Origin: a virus
DNA: 46,593 nt
IMG/VR virus record: IMGVR_UViG_3300005577_000011
Coordinates: 1-46,593 of that record
Strand: one strand, 5' to 3'
The stretch's first letter is position 1. Each line of letters opens with the position of its first letter. Below the pieces are notes generated by a model. The model was not told where the DNA came from and searched no databases. It worked only from the letters and a program-made list of their open reading frames with translations. Both the position numbers and the translations under genes were made by a program. Shown one piece after another: positions 2,605 through 39,158 of this stretch.

Positions 2605-4810
2605 CGACCCGATCACTCCCCTCCTGCGCAGGGAGGAGGACTCGGCGAAGATCGAGACCGACGAGCGGTACGGCTACGACCGCATCTATCCGGCGAAAGA
2701 CATCCTCGCAAAGATGGGCAGCACGTACGCCGATCAGGTCGAACAGGGCGACAAGAATTTCGAAGAGCGGTTCCGCCGCATGCGCGCAGCAGAGGATGCG
2801 TACGAGGCGGACGAACCGGGCGCCAACGAAGTCCTGACCGTGCCGCTCGGGAAGGGCATCATCAACCAGCAAATCGCGTGGGTTTCGAATCAGATCCTCA
2901 GCAAAGACCCGTACATGACATTCCGCCCGCTCGACGGCGGATCGTACGAGGTTCCGGTTGGCGTGATGGACGGCCCGTCGACGAACACGCCGGTAGTCGG
3001 GTACGAGGAAGCCGGACCGCAACCGATCTTCGAGACCGAGGATCTGTCGAGCGAAGAGATCGCTGCGAACTTTCAGGACCTCATCCAGTACTACCTGACC
3101 GAGTGCGAGGACTTCGAGCAGCTCGTTGAGGACACCACGCACGCAATCATGGTCGGTGAGAATCCGACCTACTGGCGCATCGATTACGACCCGCGAGTGT
3201 TGCACGCGAAAACGCGCAAGTTCATCCGGACGGCAAAAGGTGACGTGCAGATTTTCGGTGTAGAGGACACGACCGTCGTTCCGCGAAATTTAGTACGCAT
3301 CCGCCACGTCTCCGGCTACAACGTCACGACCTCACTCCCGATCGAGGACGAACAAACGGCGTGGTGGATCGCGGAAAAGAATCCGCTCACCAATCAAAAG
3401 CTGTGGGAGGGGATCAAGGAAGGCCGGTACGACTTCGCGCGCAAGTGGGGCAAGAAAGGGCCGGACCAGTCCCTCGTAGACAAGGTCATGAACTTCGGCG
3501 AGAACCTGCGCGAAAACGACCCGATCGAAGCGCGCGCCGACCGGATCGATTCGCTCGTGGCCGAAAAGCCGCTTGCCGAGCACGACGTACGGACCCTCTC
3601 CTTTTTTCACCCGTTCCTTATCACGCAGCAGGACGGGACCAAAGCCATCGAGATCCGCTCATGCCTTGGCGATCTGCACGTCAAATCGCGGACCTTCCTG
3701 AGCATGACGGCGAATTGGTCGTGGAGCGGAAGGCGCCTCATCGTGCCGTTCTTCCGCCACAAGCGCCCGCATCGGTTCAGCGGAATGTCGGCGTCGGGAG
3801 ACGTGGCGCCGATCCAAGCACTCCTGTCAAGCTTCATGGATCTCCAGGTGAAGAACAAGGTTCAGAACACGCTGAAAGTGTTCCTCATCAAAGAGAACTC
3901 GCCGACATGGCGGCAACTGAAGGCCAAGAACTTTCAAGTTCGTCCCGGCGACATGCTTACCTTCGACGAGCCGACCGACATCAGCCTTCAGCAACTCGGC
4001 GCGCCAGTCGAAACGCTCGCGCCGGAAATCGGGATGCTCACCGCGATGGGCGAAAGCCTCCTCCGTCAAGACGAGACGGACATCCCGAACCGCACGCCCG
4101 GAGCGACGGTTGCCCTCACGCAGCAGTCGGTCAAGCAGCAGTCGATTCAGCTTCTCCGCTCCGAACGGCGCTCGATTGCGAAGGCGATCATGCTGTACCT
4201 CCAAACCATCGCGCAGTTCTCGCAGTACGCCGTGATCCCGTACAACGACAAAGAGAAGAAGAAGATCGTCTCAAAGATCATCGGCTTCCCGCGCGAGGTG
4301 ATCGCGAATCACTTCTCTTGCCGCGTGACGGCGACCGGGGATGACGATTCCGCGCAGGCGCGCTTCGAGAAGGCCGGACTGCTCGCGCAGGATACCGACG
4401 CGCAGAACGAAGCGGACATGGGCCTGCTTCAGACGATCCTTGACGGGCAGGTACCGCAAGCCAAGCGCGACGCCGCGCAGTTCCTCCTGCTTCGTCGCAA
4501 CCGGCTCTACGCGGAACGGATTCGCAGCTTCAAACTCGACACGCAGCACTACGCCATTGACGAGAAAATGATTGCCGGATGGCGGCAGTCATTGATCGAC
4601 GAAGCAGCGCAGCAGGCCGAGGCAGCGGCAGCGGCGCAAGGAGGAGTGAATGGCCCGCAGCTTCCTGCCCCCGAAGGTGGAGGATCTGTTCCCCAGCCAC
4701 AAGCCGGACAAGAACCATCTGGCGGCCCTGGCGGACAACCTGTTCTTCCAGGAGTACCTGTCCCAGCTTCACCGCAAGCTGTTCAACCACCGGGAGCGGC
4801 TGGGCCATGA
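2582..4810 (+). CDS. Portal protein
   Basis: 742 aa from GTG 2582, which has GAAGGG seven bases upstream. The frame is open to 2504, but that stretch overlaps the upstream gene and is not portal-like. Position directly after terminase, length, and the N-terminal region on nucleotide-binding membrane-free helices (for example LTVPLGKGIINQQIAW) fit the large portals of podoviruses, which form the dodecameric DNA channel. The last ~65 residues are Pro/Gly/Ala/Gln-rich and probably disordered. That tail overlaps another gene (4650-4931) by 161 bases in a different frame. Confidence 0.85.
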   Translation: MEPDANANDPITPLLRREEDSAKIETDERYGYDRIYPAKDILAKMGSTYADQVEQGDKNFEERFRRMRAAEDAYEADEPGANEVLTVPLGKGIINQQIAWVSNQILSKDPYMTFRPLDGGSYEVPVGVMDGPSTNTPVVGYEEAGPQPIFETEDLSSEEIAANFQDLIQYYLTECEDFEQLVEDTTHAIMVGENPTYWRIDYDPRVLHAKTRKFIRTAKGDVQIFGVEDTTVVPRNLVRIRHVSGYNVTTSLPIEDEQTAWWIAEKNPLTNQKLWEGIKEGRYDFARKWGKKGPDQSLVDKVMNFGENLRENDPIEARADRIDSLVAEKPLAEHDVRTLSFFHPFLITQQDGTKAIEIRSCLGDLHVKSRTFLSMTANWSWSGRRLIVPFFRHKRPHRFSGMSASGDVAPIQALLSSFMDLQVKNKVQNTLKVFLIKENSPTWRQLKAKNFQVRPGDMLTFDEPTDISLQQLGAPVETLAPEIGMLTAMGESLLRQDETDIPNRTPGATVALTQQSVKQQSIQLLRSERRSIAKAIMLYLQTIAQFSQYAVIPYNDKEKKKIVSKIIGFPREVIANHFSCRVTATGDDDSAQARFEKAGLLAQDTDAQNEADMGLLQTILDGQVPQAKRDAAQFLLLRRNRLYAERIRSFKLDTQHYAIDEKMIAGWRQSLIDEAAQQAEAAAAAQGGVNGPQLPAPEGGGSVPQPQAGQEPSGGPGGQPVLPGVPVPASPQAVQPPGAAGP

Positions 4811-37672: not shown

Positions 37673-37966
37673 ATGGCCACCAAGAAATCTTCCGAGCGTC
37701 CTGTCATCGTGACCACCGTCCACAAGGGAGTGTTCTTCGGCTTCGCGGAGGACACGTCCGGCGCAACCATCAAACTGAAACGCGCTCGGCTCTGCGTCTA
37801 CTGGTCGGCGGATCTGCGCGGATTCATGGGGCTCGCATCTGTCGGACCGAACCGCAACTGCAAGATCGGGCCGCCCGCCGACATCGAACTGCGTGACATC
37901 ACTGCTGTCCTTGAAGTTTCGCCGGAAGCCGTCACGAAGTGGGAGGCCGCGCCGTGGAACGGGTAA
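37673..37966 (+). CDS. DUF6948-like small phage protein
   Basis: 97 aa, start after AGGAGGAAAG. The pattern VIVTTVHKGVFFGFAEDTSG, CVYWSADLRGFMGLA, CKIGPPADIELRDITAVLE is familiar from a phage family that I believe is DUF6948. In other genomes it too precedes a Gly-rich repeat gene. Function unknown. Overlaps the next gene by 13 bases. Confidence 0.65.
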   Translation: MATKKSSERPVIVTTVHKGVFFGFAEDTSGATIKLKRARLCVYWSADLRGFMGLASVGPNRNCKIGPPADIELRDITAVLEVSPEAVTKWEAAPWNG

Positions 37967-38253
37967 TCCGTGGTGAACTGCCGACTTTGGCGAATGCCCA
38001 AGTCGGCTACGGCGACGGCTCCGGCGACGGCTCCGGCTACGGCTACGGCTCCGGCTACGGCTACGGCTCCGGCGACGGCGACGGCTCCGGCTCCGGCTAC
38101 GGCTACGGCGACGGCGACGGCTCCGGCTACGGCTACGGCGACGGCGACCAGCCAATGATCGCGGTCCTGAAGCGCTCAGAGGAAAAGGTCAGCGTGCGGA
38201 AGTACGTCATACCGAAGAAGGACACCACGGCGAGCACGGCGAGCGGCGAATAA
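37954..38253 (+). CDS. Gly-Tyr/Asp/Ser dipeptide-repeat protein
   Basis: 99 aa from GTG 37954 with GGGAGG eight bases upstream; the frame is open to GTG 37939. A short N-terminus (ERVIRGELPTLANAQV), then 24 dipeptides Gly-X with X only Tyr, Asp or Ser, then a basic C-terminal part with VIPKKDTTASTASGE. The repeat should be fully disordered, with Tyr spaced as in sticker-type low-complexity proteins. Role unknown. Confidence 0.7.
   Translation: MERVIRGELPTLANAQVGYGDGSGDGSGYGYGSGYGYGSGDGDGSGSGYGYGDGDGSGYGYGDGDQPMIAVLKRSEEKVSVRKYVIPKKDTTASTASGE
38005..38148 (+). repeat. Hexanucleotide tandem array, 24 units
   Basis: 144 bases made only of GGC followed by TAC, GAC or TCC. The units differ by single bases and the order is irregular. 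Such arrays change length by slippage in six-base steps, which would keep the frame open. Confidence 0.95.
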
Positions 38254-38268
38254 CTCGCGCGCTGCGGT

Positions 38269-38520
38269 GGTCGCGCGGTCGCCGGATCTGCCTCCTGCGG
38301 GAGCGTATTCGGCGGACCTCACCGCGCGACCTTCGGAGCGACCCGTCGTGTACCTCTCTGCGCCGATCTTCTCTTCGCCGGGTTGAACGGTACCTCAGCG
38401 GCGGGTCGCTCCGATTCTTTGAACACTCGCGATTGCCAGGCGCAGCAAAACAAGTGGTTCGCCGCCGAACCCGGCCCGCAGTCGAGGTCAAGCGGGTTCA
38501 ACTCCCGTCCGTTCGCAACC
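38269..38520 (+). ncRNA. Highly structured non-coding region with T-arm-like end
   Basis: 281 bases between genes contain long exact inverted repeats. Hairpin I: GGTCGCGCGGT (38269) with ACCGCGCGACC (38321), inside it CGCC/GGCG and CTCC-TGCG-GGAG. Hairpin II: GGAGCGACCCG (38335) with CGGGTCGCTCC (38402), inside it GTACC/GGTAC. Hairpin III: GGTTCG-CCGC-CGAACC (38456-38471). Finally GCGGG-TTCAACT-CCCGT (38492-38508) looks like a tRNA T-arm. No full tRNA can be folded. It lies directly upstream of the RNA ligase gene. Likely a structured RNA; identity unknown. Confidence 0.6.
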
Positions 38521-38534
38521 ATTCAGGAGGAAGC

Positions 38535-39158
38535 ATGAGCAAATACCCGAAGATCGAAACGCTGTACGAGCGCGACGAGGCCACGCACAAGTTGAAGACG
38601 GAACTCGTCCTAAAGAACCGGACCTACAGCCTTATCAAAACGTGGCAGTTCACCGAGAAGATCGACGGCACCAACATCCGCGTGACGTGGGACTTCGCTG
38701 CCCGCAAGATCACGCTCGGCGGGCGAACGGACGCCGCGCAGATTCACGCGGACCTCGTTCGCTGGCTGTACAAGAATGTTTCGACGGAGCGGCTTGCCGA
38801 TGTCTTTCCCGATGTAAACGCCGTCATCTATGGCGAGGGGTACGGCGCCGGAATCCAGAAGGGCGGCGGCTACTCGGCGACGAAGAAACTCATCGTTTTC
38901 GATGTGCTCGTTGACGGCAAATGGTGGCTCAATTGGGAGTCAACCTGCGATGTTGCCAGCAAGCTCGGACTCGACGTCGTTCCGCTCATCGGCGAGATGA
39001 CCCTCGAAGACGCAACGGATTTCGTGCGGCGCGGTTTCCAGTCGCGGCTGAACGGCGGACAGATCGCGGCCGAGGGACTGGTTGGCAAGACGGCCGAGCC
39101 GCTCTTCGACAAGAAGGGCCATCGACTCATCGTGAAGTTGAAGACCAAGGACTTTTGA
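38535..39158 (+). CDS. RNA ligase (Rnl2-like nucleotidyltransferase family)
   Basis: 207 aa, AGGAGG before the ATG. Nucleotidyltransferase motifs in order: I FTEKIDGTN (Lys42 would be adenylylated), III VIYGEGYG (Glu101), IIIa LIVFDVLVDG, IV AEGLVGK, V LIVKLKTK. It would seal nicks or breaks in RNA using ATP, as T4 Rnl2-type enzymes do. No C-terminal extension and no polynucleotide kinase gene were seen. Adjacent to a structured RNA region that may be its partner or substrate. Confidence 0.82.
   Translation: MSKYPKIETLYERDEATHKLKTELVLKNRTYSLIKTWQFTEKIDGTNIRVTWDFAARKITLGGRTDAAQIHADLVRWLYKNVSTERLADVFPDVNAVIYGEGYGAGIQKGGGYSATKKLIVFDVLVDGKWWLNWESTCDVASKLGLDVVPLIGEMTLEDATDFVRRGFQSRLNGGQIAAEGLVGKTAEPLFDKKGHRLIVKLKTKDF

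Follow-up and report, generated by a model that had tools for sequence, protein, structure and literature searches.

A tRNA-like end in the leader of a phage RNA ligase gene, possibly the remains of an altered tRNA gene

The DNA analysed here, a 46,593-base IMG/VR virus record (the window), carries a non-coding gap at 38254-38534, which follows the stop codon (38253) of a Gly-Tyr-rich ORF and runs up to the ATG of an RNA ligase gene (38535), and the 3' part of this gap contains a T-arm derived from a tRNA. We read this 3' part as what is left of a tRNA gene directly ahead of the ligase gene, or as such a gene in much altered form. To this reading we give about even confidence, and a broken or interrupted tRNA is more likely than a decoy RNA of a new kind. 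The latter, a multi-hairpin RNA that mimics tRNA beside a ligase, had been put forward in the original prediction. Of that proposal, the tRNA-like end of the gap, with a 20-mer found elsewhere only in tRNAs, and its position next to a true ligase gene held, but a conserved multi-hairpin partner was found at none of 121 ligase loci. The features discussed are listed in Table 1.

Table 1. Coordinates of the features discussed (positions in the window, unless another contig is named).
Feature	Position	Strand	Remarks
Upstream Gly-Tyr/Asp-Gly-repeat ORF (GYG repeats)	37954-38253	+	Final codons adjoin the gap
Hairpin 1	38269-38331	+	11-bp perfect stem 38269-38279/38321-38331; nested helix 38280-38287/38307-38314
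Hairpin 2	38333-38414	+	13-bp perfect stem 38333-38345/38402-38414
Candidate tRNA 5' part	38384-38408	+	Putative; alternatively, 38392-38408 is the 5' strand of the long arm
Insert-like middle	38409-38479	+	About 56-60 nt outside the tRNA; holds the GGTTCG-CCGC-CGAACC hairpin 38456-38471
Alternative long arm, 3' strand	38472-38488	+	15 of 17 pairs with 38392-38408
Canonical tRNA T-arm, GCGGG-TTCAACT-CCCGT	38492-38508	+	5-bp stem, TTCRANY loop
Acceptor-3'-like strand	38509-38521	+	CCGTTCG, then CAACCA
RNA ligase gene	38535-39158	+	P0001, 207 aa; Rnl2-like catalytic domain only
Interrupted tRNA, L204	269-386	-	Anticodon-loop insert
Interrupted tRNA, L225	8138-8294	-	Anticodon-loop insert
Interrupted tRNA, L302	11962-12085	+	Anticodon-loop insert
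Interrupted tRNA, L142	7341-7460		Anticodon-loop insert
Interrupted tRNA, L126	7375-7515	-	Anticodon-loop insert
Interrupted tRNA, L029	2355-2484		Anticodon-loop insert

The T-arm, described beforehand as T-arm-like, proved to be canonical. Its motif occurs once on the + strand of the window, with a chance expectation of about one per 93 kb over both strands, i.e., about one per window. The exact 20-mer of the T-arm (GCGGGTTCAACTCCCGTCCG) was found in five other viral contigs, every time in the T-arm of a tRNA: four of the five matches lie in ARAGORN-called tRNAs, and the tRNA that holds the fifth has either an insert of 29 nt or a very long variable arm. A 14-mer from the candidate 5' part in the same gap (TGAACGGTACCTCA) had 54 other viral matches, none of which was a tRNA; scaled from this number, chance alone would give about 0.01 occurrences of the 20-mer. 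Moreover, when 72 phage tRNAs were used to build a tRNA covariance model, this matched only the T-arm in the gap, and the match was the top one of the model on both strands of the 46.6-kb window. In the strand that follows, CAACCA after CCGTTCG exceeds the length of an encoded CCA end by two bases, and about 10 nt separate the tRNA-like structure from the Shine-Dalgarno sequence AGGAGG (38525-38530) of the ligase gene. Neither ARAGORN nor Rfam called any known RNA in the gap, tRNA and tmRNA included, which bears out the predicted absence of a standard tRNA fold; the score of the Rfam tRNA family at the gap was under the threshold, and the Rfam search of the gap gave no match at the gathering score and none that was plausible at a lax score.

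The gene downstream of the gap had been said to carry all RNA-ligase motifs, and this was confirmed. Its product, P0001, matches the Pfam family RNA_ligase (PF09414; E 1.8e-18, 67.7 bits, cut-off 27) as well as PHROG RNA ligases, and the core catalytic motifs K42-x-D-G, E101, E180-G and K201-x-K are invariant in 14 relatives of the ligase. A profile of these relatives matches the T4 Rnl2 structures at 5e-9; the cut-off of the Rnl2 equivalog TIGR02307 was missed by P0001 (26 vs 197 bits). By these similarities, P0001 is a true member of the RNA_ligase family, a small, Rnl2-like enzyme that consists of the catalytic domain only. The ORF on the other side of the gap encodes a short protein of GYGSGDG repeats, and in a Manatee Spring phage (L183) the RNA ligase gene is followed by that of a 'pgdyg' protein. 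The stretch 37921-38040, in the start of the GYG gene, is the strongest fold of the window on both strands, with the hairpin GCCGACTT...AAGTCGGC.

The position of the T-arm was compared with the surroundings of the ligase in 121 loci, of which 87 are from viral contigs and 34 from bacterial genome contigs. Several relatives carry a tRNA at the edge of the ligase gene, either upstream of it (tRNA-Leu at a distance of 24 nt in L005, tRNA-Glu at 13 nt in L012, and a D-arm-poor tRNA at about 17 nt in L041) or downstream (tRNA-Phe at 5 nt in L004, and tRNA-Leu at 13 nt in L031, in which 22 tRNAs surround the ligase). With a single exception, the tRNAs in these loci lie on the ligase strand. Thus, the T-arm sits in a normal tRNA slot, and since this slot is filled by an intact tRNA in relatives, a tRNA or its relic would explain the T-arm without any decoy role. 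The enrichment of strict T-arms at the ligase edge is borderline (5 seen vs 2.1 expected, p 0.057), and about 90% of the ligase loci are without an ARAGORN tRNA within about 3 kb. In L086, L054, L116 and L066, tRNA-like sequences that ARAGORN missed lie close to the ligase edge.

Some of these loci contain structured elements that are worth describing separately. In L086, a tRNA-like element (1298-1471, +) that lies 40 nt ahead of a ligase with 43% identity has a 7-bp acceptor (AAATGGG/CCCATTT), a T-arm, a long middle arm and, inside, a second T-arm-like hairpin. The element of L054 (3616-3734, +), directly 3' of the ligase, combines a 10-bp acceptor-like closing stem with a Ser/Leu-type D-arm sequence and a perfect T-arm. 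Upstream of the ligase of L029, an element at 2779-2884 (+) is closed by an 8-bp acceptor-like stem and has a perfect anticodon arm (CCGGA-TTTGTAA-TCTGG) without a T-loop, and two structured non-tRNA stretches with strong closing stems (3811-3950 and about 2590-2680, +) lie in the array of 22 tRNAs of L031. A hammerhead ribozyme type III (RF00008; 37.9 bits, E 4.7e-7, below the gathering score) was found in L064 (2606-2674, +), with two tRNAs on one side and the RNA ligase gene on the other; it overlaps a T-arm-like hairpin, GTCGG-TGTAATC-CCGAT.

The rest of the gap did not have such counterparts among the ligase relatives. No similar gap was found in the 121 loci, blastn of the gap against the relatives gave nothing past a 15-base match, the gapped pattern of hairpin 2 had no match in viral contigs, and the upstream regions of the relatives are unstructured on average (median fold z -0.45). 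A conserved non-coding RNA upstream of the ligase was rejected on these grounds, and conservation lends no support to the new phage RNA system that had been envisaged. As the gap as a whole is not conserved in these loci, it is not a conserved partner RNA.

All the structures named in the original prediction are nevertheless present in the gap. Both inverted repeats, predicted to be 11 bases each, are real and have the nested helices ascribed to them, but the stem of hairpin 2 is actually 13 bp long. The stem of hairpin 1 is formed by GGTCGCGCGGT (38269-38279) and ACCGCGCGACC (38321-38331) around the nested pair CGCCGGAT/ATTCGGCG, and hairpin 2 encloses the pair GTACC (38350-38354)/GGTAC (38389-38393), its 3' arm overlapping the candidate tRNA 5' part. 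The third hairpin is formed by GGTTCG (38456-38461) and CGAACC (38466-38471). The + strand of the gap folds with a z of -3.26, equalled by 1 of 200 shuffles, and the - strand with a z of -1.77. Six perfect stems of at least 11 bp within 100 nt occur in the window, compared with 2.4 expected in Markov sequence, and two of the six stand back to back in the gap, which is rare in Markov sequence. Hairpin 2 alone is borderline relative to gap shuffles (helix score 16.0, null 95th percentile 16.5), whereas the second helix, at 15.5, stands out from a null mean of 11.8 with a maximum of 16.0 in 400 gap shuffles. The pair is unusual through its second helix, the best single helix being borderline in this GC-rich, repeat-like composition. 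On the scale of the whole window, other stretches fold more strongly than the gap. No further copies of the hairpin arms were found, and a role of the hairpins as repeats or binding sites was rejected on that ground.

A possible 5' counterpart of the T-arm was found upstream of it in the gap. TGAACGG (38384-38390) pairs with CCGTTCG (38509-38515) at 7/7 positions, including one U.G, and is followed by T8, A9, A14-like and GG positions and by the D-loop-like CTCAGCGG. A strict scan that covered the window together with about 715 kb from relatives gave this candidate as its sole match, with a chance of 5e-5 to 0.002 in shuffles, an optimistic p-value as the scan was written after the candidate had been seen. 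A general tRNA scorer placed the best partner of the T-arm at 38384 as well (26.8 bits vs a null maximum of 24.9 in 1500; p <0.001), and did so again with stricter settings; both scorers had general parameters but were written afterwards, and the first was lenient on weak D-stems. In the three tailored tests, the chance of the 5' part was below 0.1-0.3%. However, the candidate D-stem is poor (2/4 pairs), and the candidate reaches 21-26 bits, compared with 33-48 for convincing interrupted phage tRNAs (L142, L302, L204 and L225). The 14-mer from this part was never a tRNA in its other viral matches, hairpin 2 competes for the same strand, and the nulls based on ARAGORN, given below, range from weak (3%) to uninformative (58%). 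Taken together, these results suggest, rather than show, a tRNA 5' part at 38384-38408. A compact class-II cloverleaf at 38429-38516 was dropped, having a 6-nt anticodon-like loop without an anticodon and an acceptor of 6/7 pairs.

If this 5' part is genuine, the gap could even encode a tRNA that is functional once the small insert in the anticodon region has been excised and the neighboring ligase has joined the halves, but we regard this as unlikely. In its favor are the single match in the strict scan, the existence of small anticodon-loop inserts in phage tRNAs, and the 77-nt tRNA-Gln(UUG) that ARAGORN calls at default settings once 56 nt are taken out. However, a spliced ARAGORN call was also obtained in 14% of the shuffles that kept the T-arm, and the score of the spliced candidate was matched by 3% of shuffles (p ~0.03). 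ARAGORN run with introns at the default threshold found nothing in the gap, and its intron mode at a 90% threshold succeeded in 58% of T-arm-fixed shuffles. As so many T-arm-keeping shuffles are solved too, the ARAGORN call on the spliced sequence is no evidence by itself. Moreover, the anticodon varies with the splicing register (Gln, Lys, Glu or Ala), inspection by hand of the junctions in two registers revealed no bulge-helix-bulge of the archaeal tRNA-intron type (no 4-bp central helix with 3-nt bulges), and hairpin 2 competes with the tRNA form. An insert of about 56-60 nt also falls well short of a group I intron, whose core takes about 200 nt or more, and no Rfam intron family was matched. 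Splicing by the ligase was rejected, as members of the RNA_ligase family turned up in 2 of 12 contigs that have interrupted tRNAs and in 1 of 20 controls, i.e., without clear co-occurrence.

Interrupted tRNA genes of this kind do exist elsewhere: phage tRNA genes with 43-81-nt anticodon-loop inserts were found in L204, L225, L302, L142, L126 and L029. Removal of the inserts gives canonical loops (CTGTTAA, CTTTTAA, CTTCTAA) with good outer arms. A total of 21 candidates were obtained in 2.25 Mb and none in a Markov control, with T-arm-fixed shuffles giving 0-27% false calls per candidate. Those of L204, L225 and L302 score 42-48 bits, with a null maximum of about 23, and each of their inserts has a T-arm-like hairpin and a CCA...TAA end before the 3' stem. 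These three are convincing small-insert phage tRNAs, with inserts too small for group I introns, and they merit study for their own sake.

The same 3' part also admits a different fold. When 38384-38521 was folded alone, it formed the 7-bp acceptor, the T-arm and the long arm (chance 0.00075 with the T-arm fixed). The strand 38389-38414 can pair either with its hairpin 2 partner (38333-38354) or with the long-arm strand, as if the leader had two states. Such a leader could serve as an operator, in which a tRNA-binding protein, e.g., the ligase itself, or a cleaved-tRNA signal would bind the tRNA-like form and set the expression of the ligase, with independent versions in phages like L086; we think this rather improbable. 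The structure stops close to the Shine-Dalgarno sequence, L086 has the same layout upstream of its ligase, and in a transcript starting after 38354 the tRNA-like form would be favoured over hairpin 2. In the full leader, however, the hairpin 2 form is better by 11 kcal/mol and sequesters the candidate 5' part. The long arm is also unexceptional among the helices of the GC-rich gap (score 12, ranks 3-5), and the structure is not conserved in close relatives of the ligase.

It is similarly improbable that the T-arm is a chance motif, or the 3' end of a host tRNA serving as an integration site. About one such motif is indeed expected per window, but the exact 20-mer matched tRNAs in five out of five cases where about 0.01 match was expected. 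attP sites often contain tRNA 3' ends, in keeping with an integration site; however, neither a tyrosine (PF00589) nor a serine (PF00239) recombinase was found in the record, which may be incomplete, and attP was rejected. Least credible, and indeed very doubtful, is a free decoy or partner RNA of the ligase that mimics tRNA like a Y RNA, for although the T-arm adjoins the ligase gene, the gap RNA has no conserved relatives and no Rfam match, nothing around it resembles a promoter or, on the + strand, a strong terminator, and a TROVE/Ro gene (PF05731) is absent from the possibly incomplete record. Judged by anatomy, a role as a decoy, a Y-RNA-like partner or an operator is possible.

We therefore return to the remains or altered form of a tRNA gene. 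Its acceptor and D-arm side would lie at 38384-38408, and the gene would be interrupted in the anticodon region by about 60 nt. The gap RNA would be transcribed with the ligase gene, as the leader of its message. As it stands, this leader would yield no working tRNA but would fold into two hairpins, with the T-arm stem just 5' of the ribosome-binding site; the hairpins may be local leader structure, e.g., RNase III or transcription-attenuation sites, and the ligase would act on other RNAs, most plausibly nicked tRNAs, in line with the role proposed for phage RNA ligases. As a relic, the element would be a further sign that tRNAs turn over rapidly at a tRNA/ligase locus. A functional tRNA-like leader would mean that the message of a phage RNA-repair enzyme carries a tRNA mimic that controls or feeds the enzyme, linking the sensing of tRNA damage to its repair. 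What remains of interest is thus the possible two-state tRNA-like leader, along with the small-insert phage tRNAs.

Among known systems, bacterial Y RNAs, which have a tRNA-mimicking domain and Ro/Rsr as a partner, resemble the gap RNA in bearing a tRNA-like end on a structured RNA, a likeness in the way of working only, and here the neighboring protein is a ligase and not Ro. tRNA-like operators occur in mRNA leaders, e.g., that of E. coli thrS, and, as in these, a tRNA-like structure lies here just 5' of the ribosome-binding site of a protein that possibly acts on tRNA; the likeness is one of anatomy. With T4 RNA ligase 2, the window ligase shares the nucleotidyltransferase domain, but it differs in being reduced to the catalytic domain and in falling far short of the equivalog cut-off. 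A further parallel is offered by phage tRNA genes beside RNA ligase genes, which have been described as tRNA repair loci in a review of jumbo phages (PMC7824862), where RNA repair is proposed for phage RNA ligases acting with phage tRNAs. While the tRNA in the slot is here unrecognisable as a whole, with only the T-arm and the acceptor-like 3' strand clear, the window resembles these loci in having an RNA ligase in a tRNA-bearing phage region, on the same strand, with a tRNA at the edge of the gene in several relatives.
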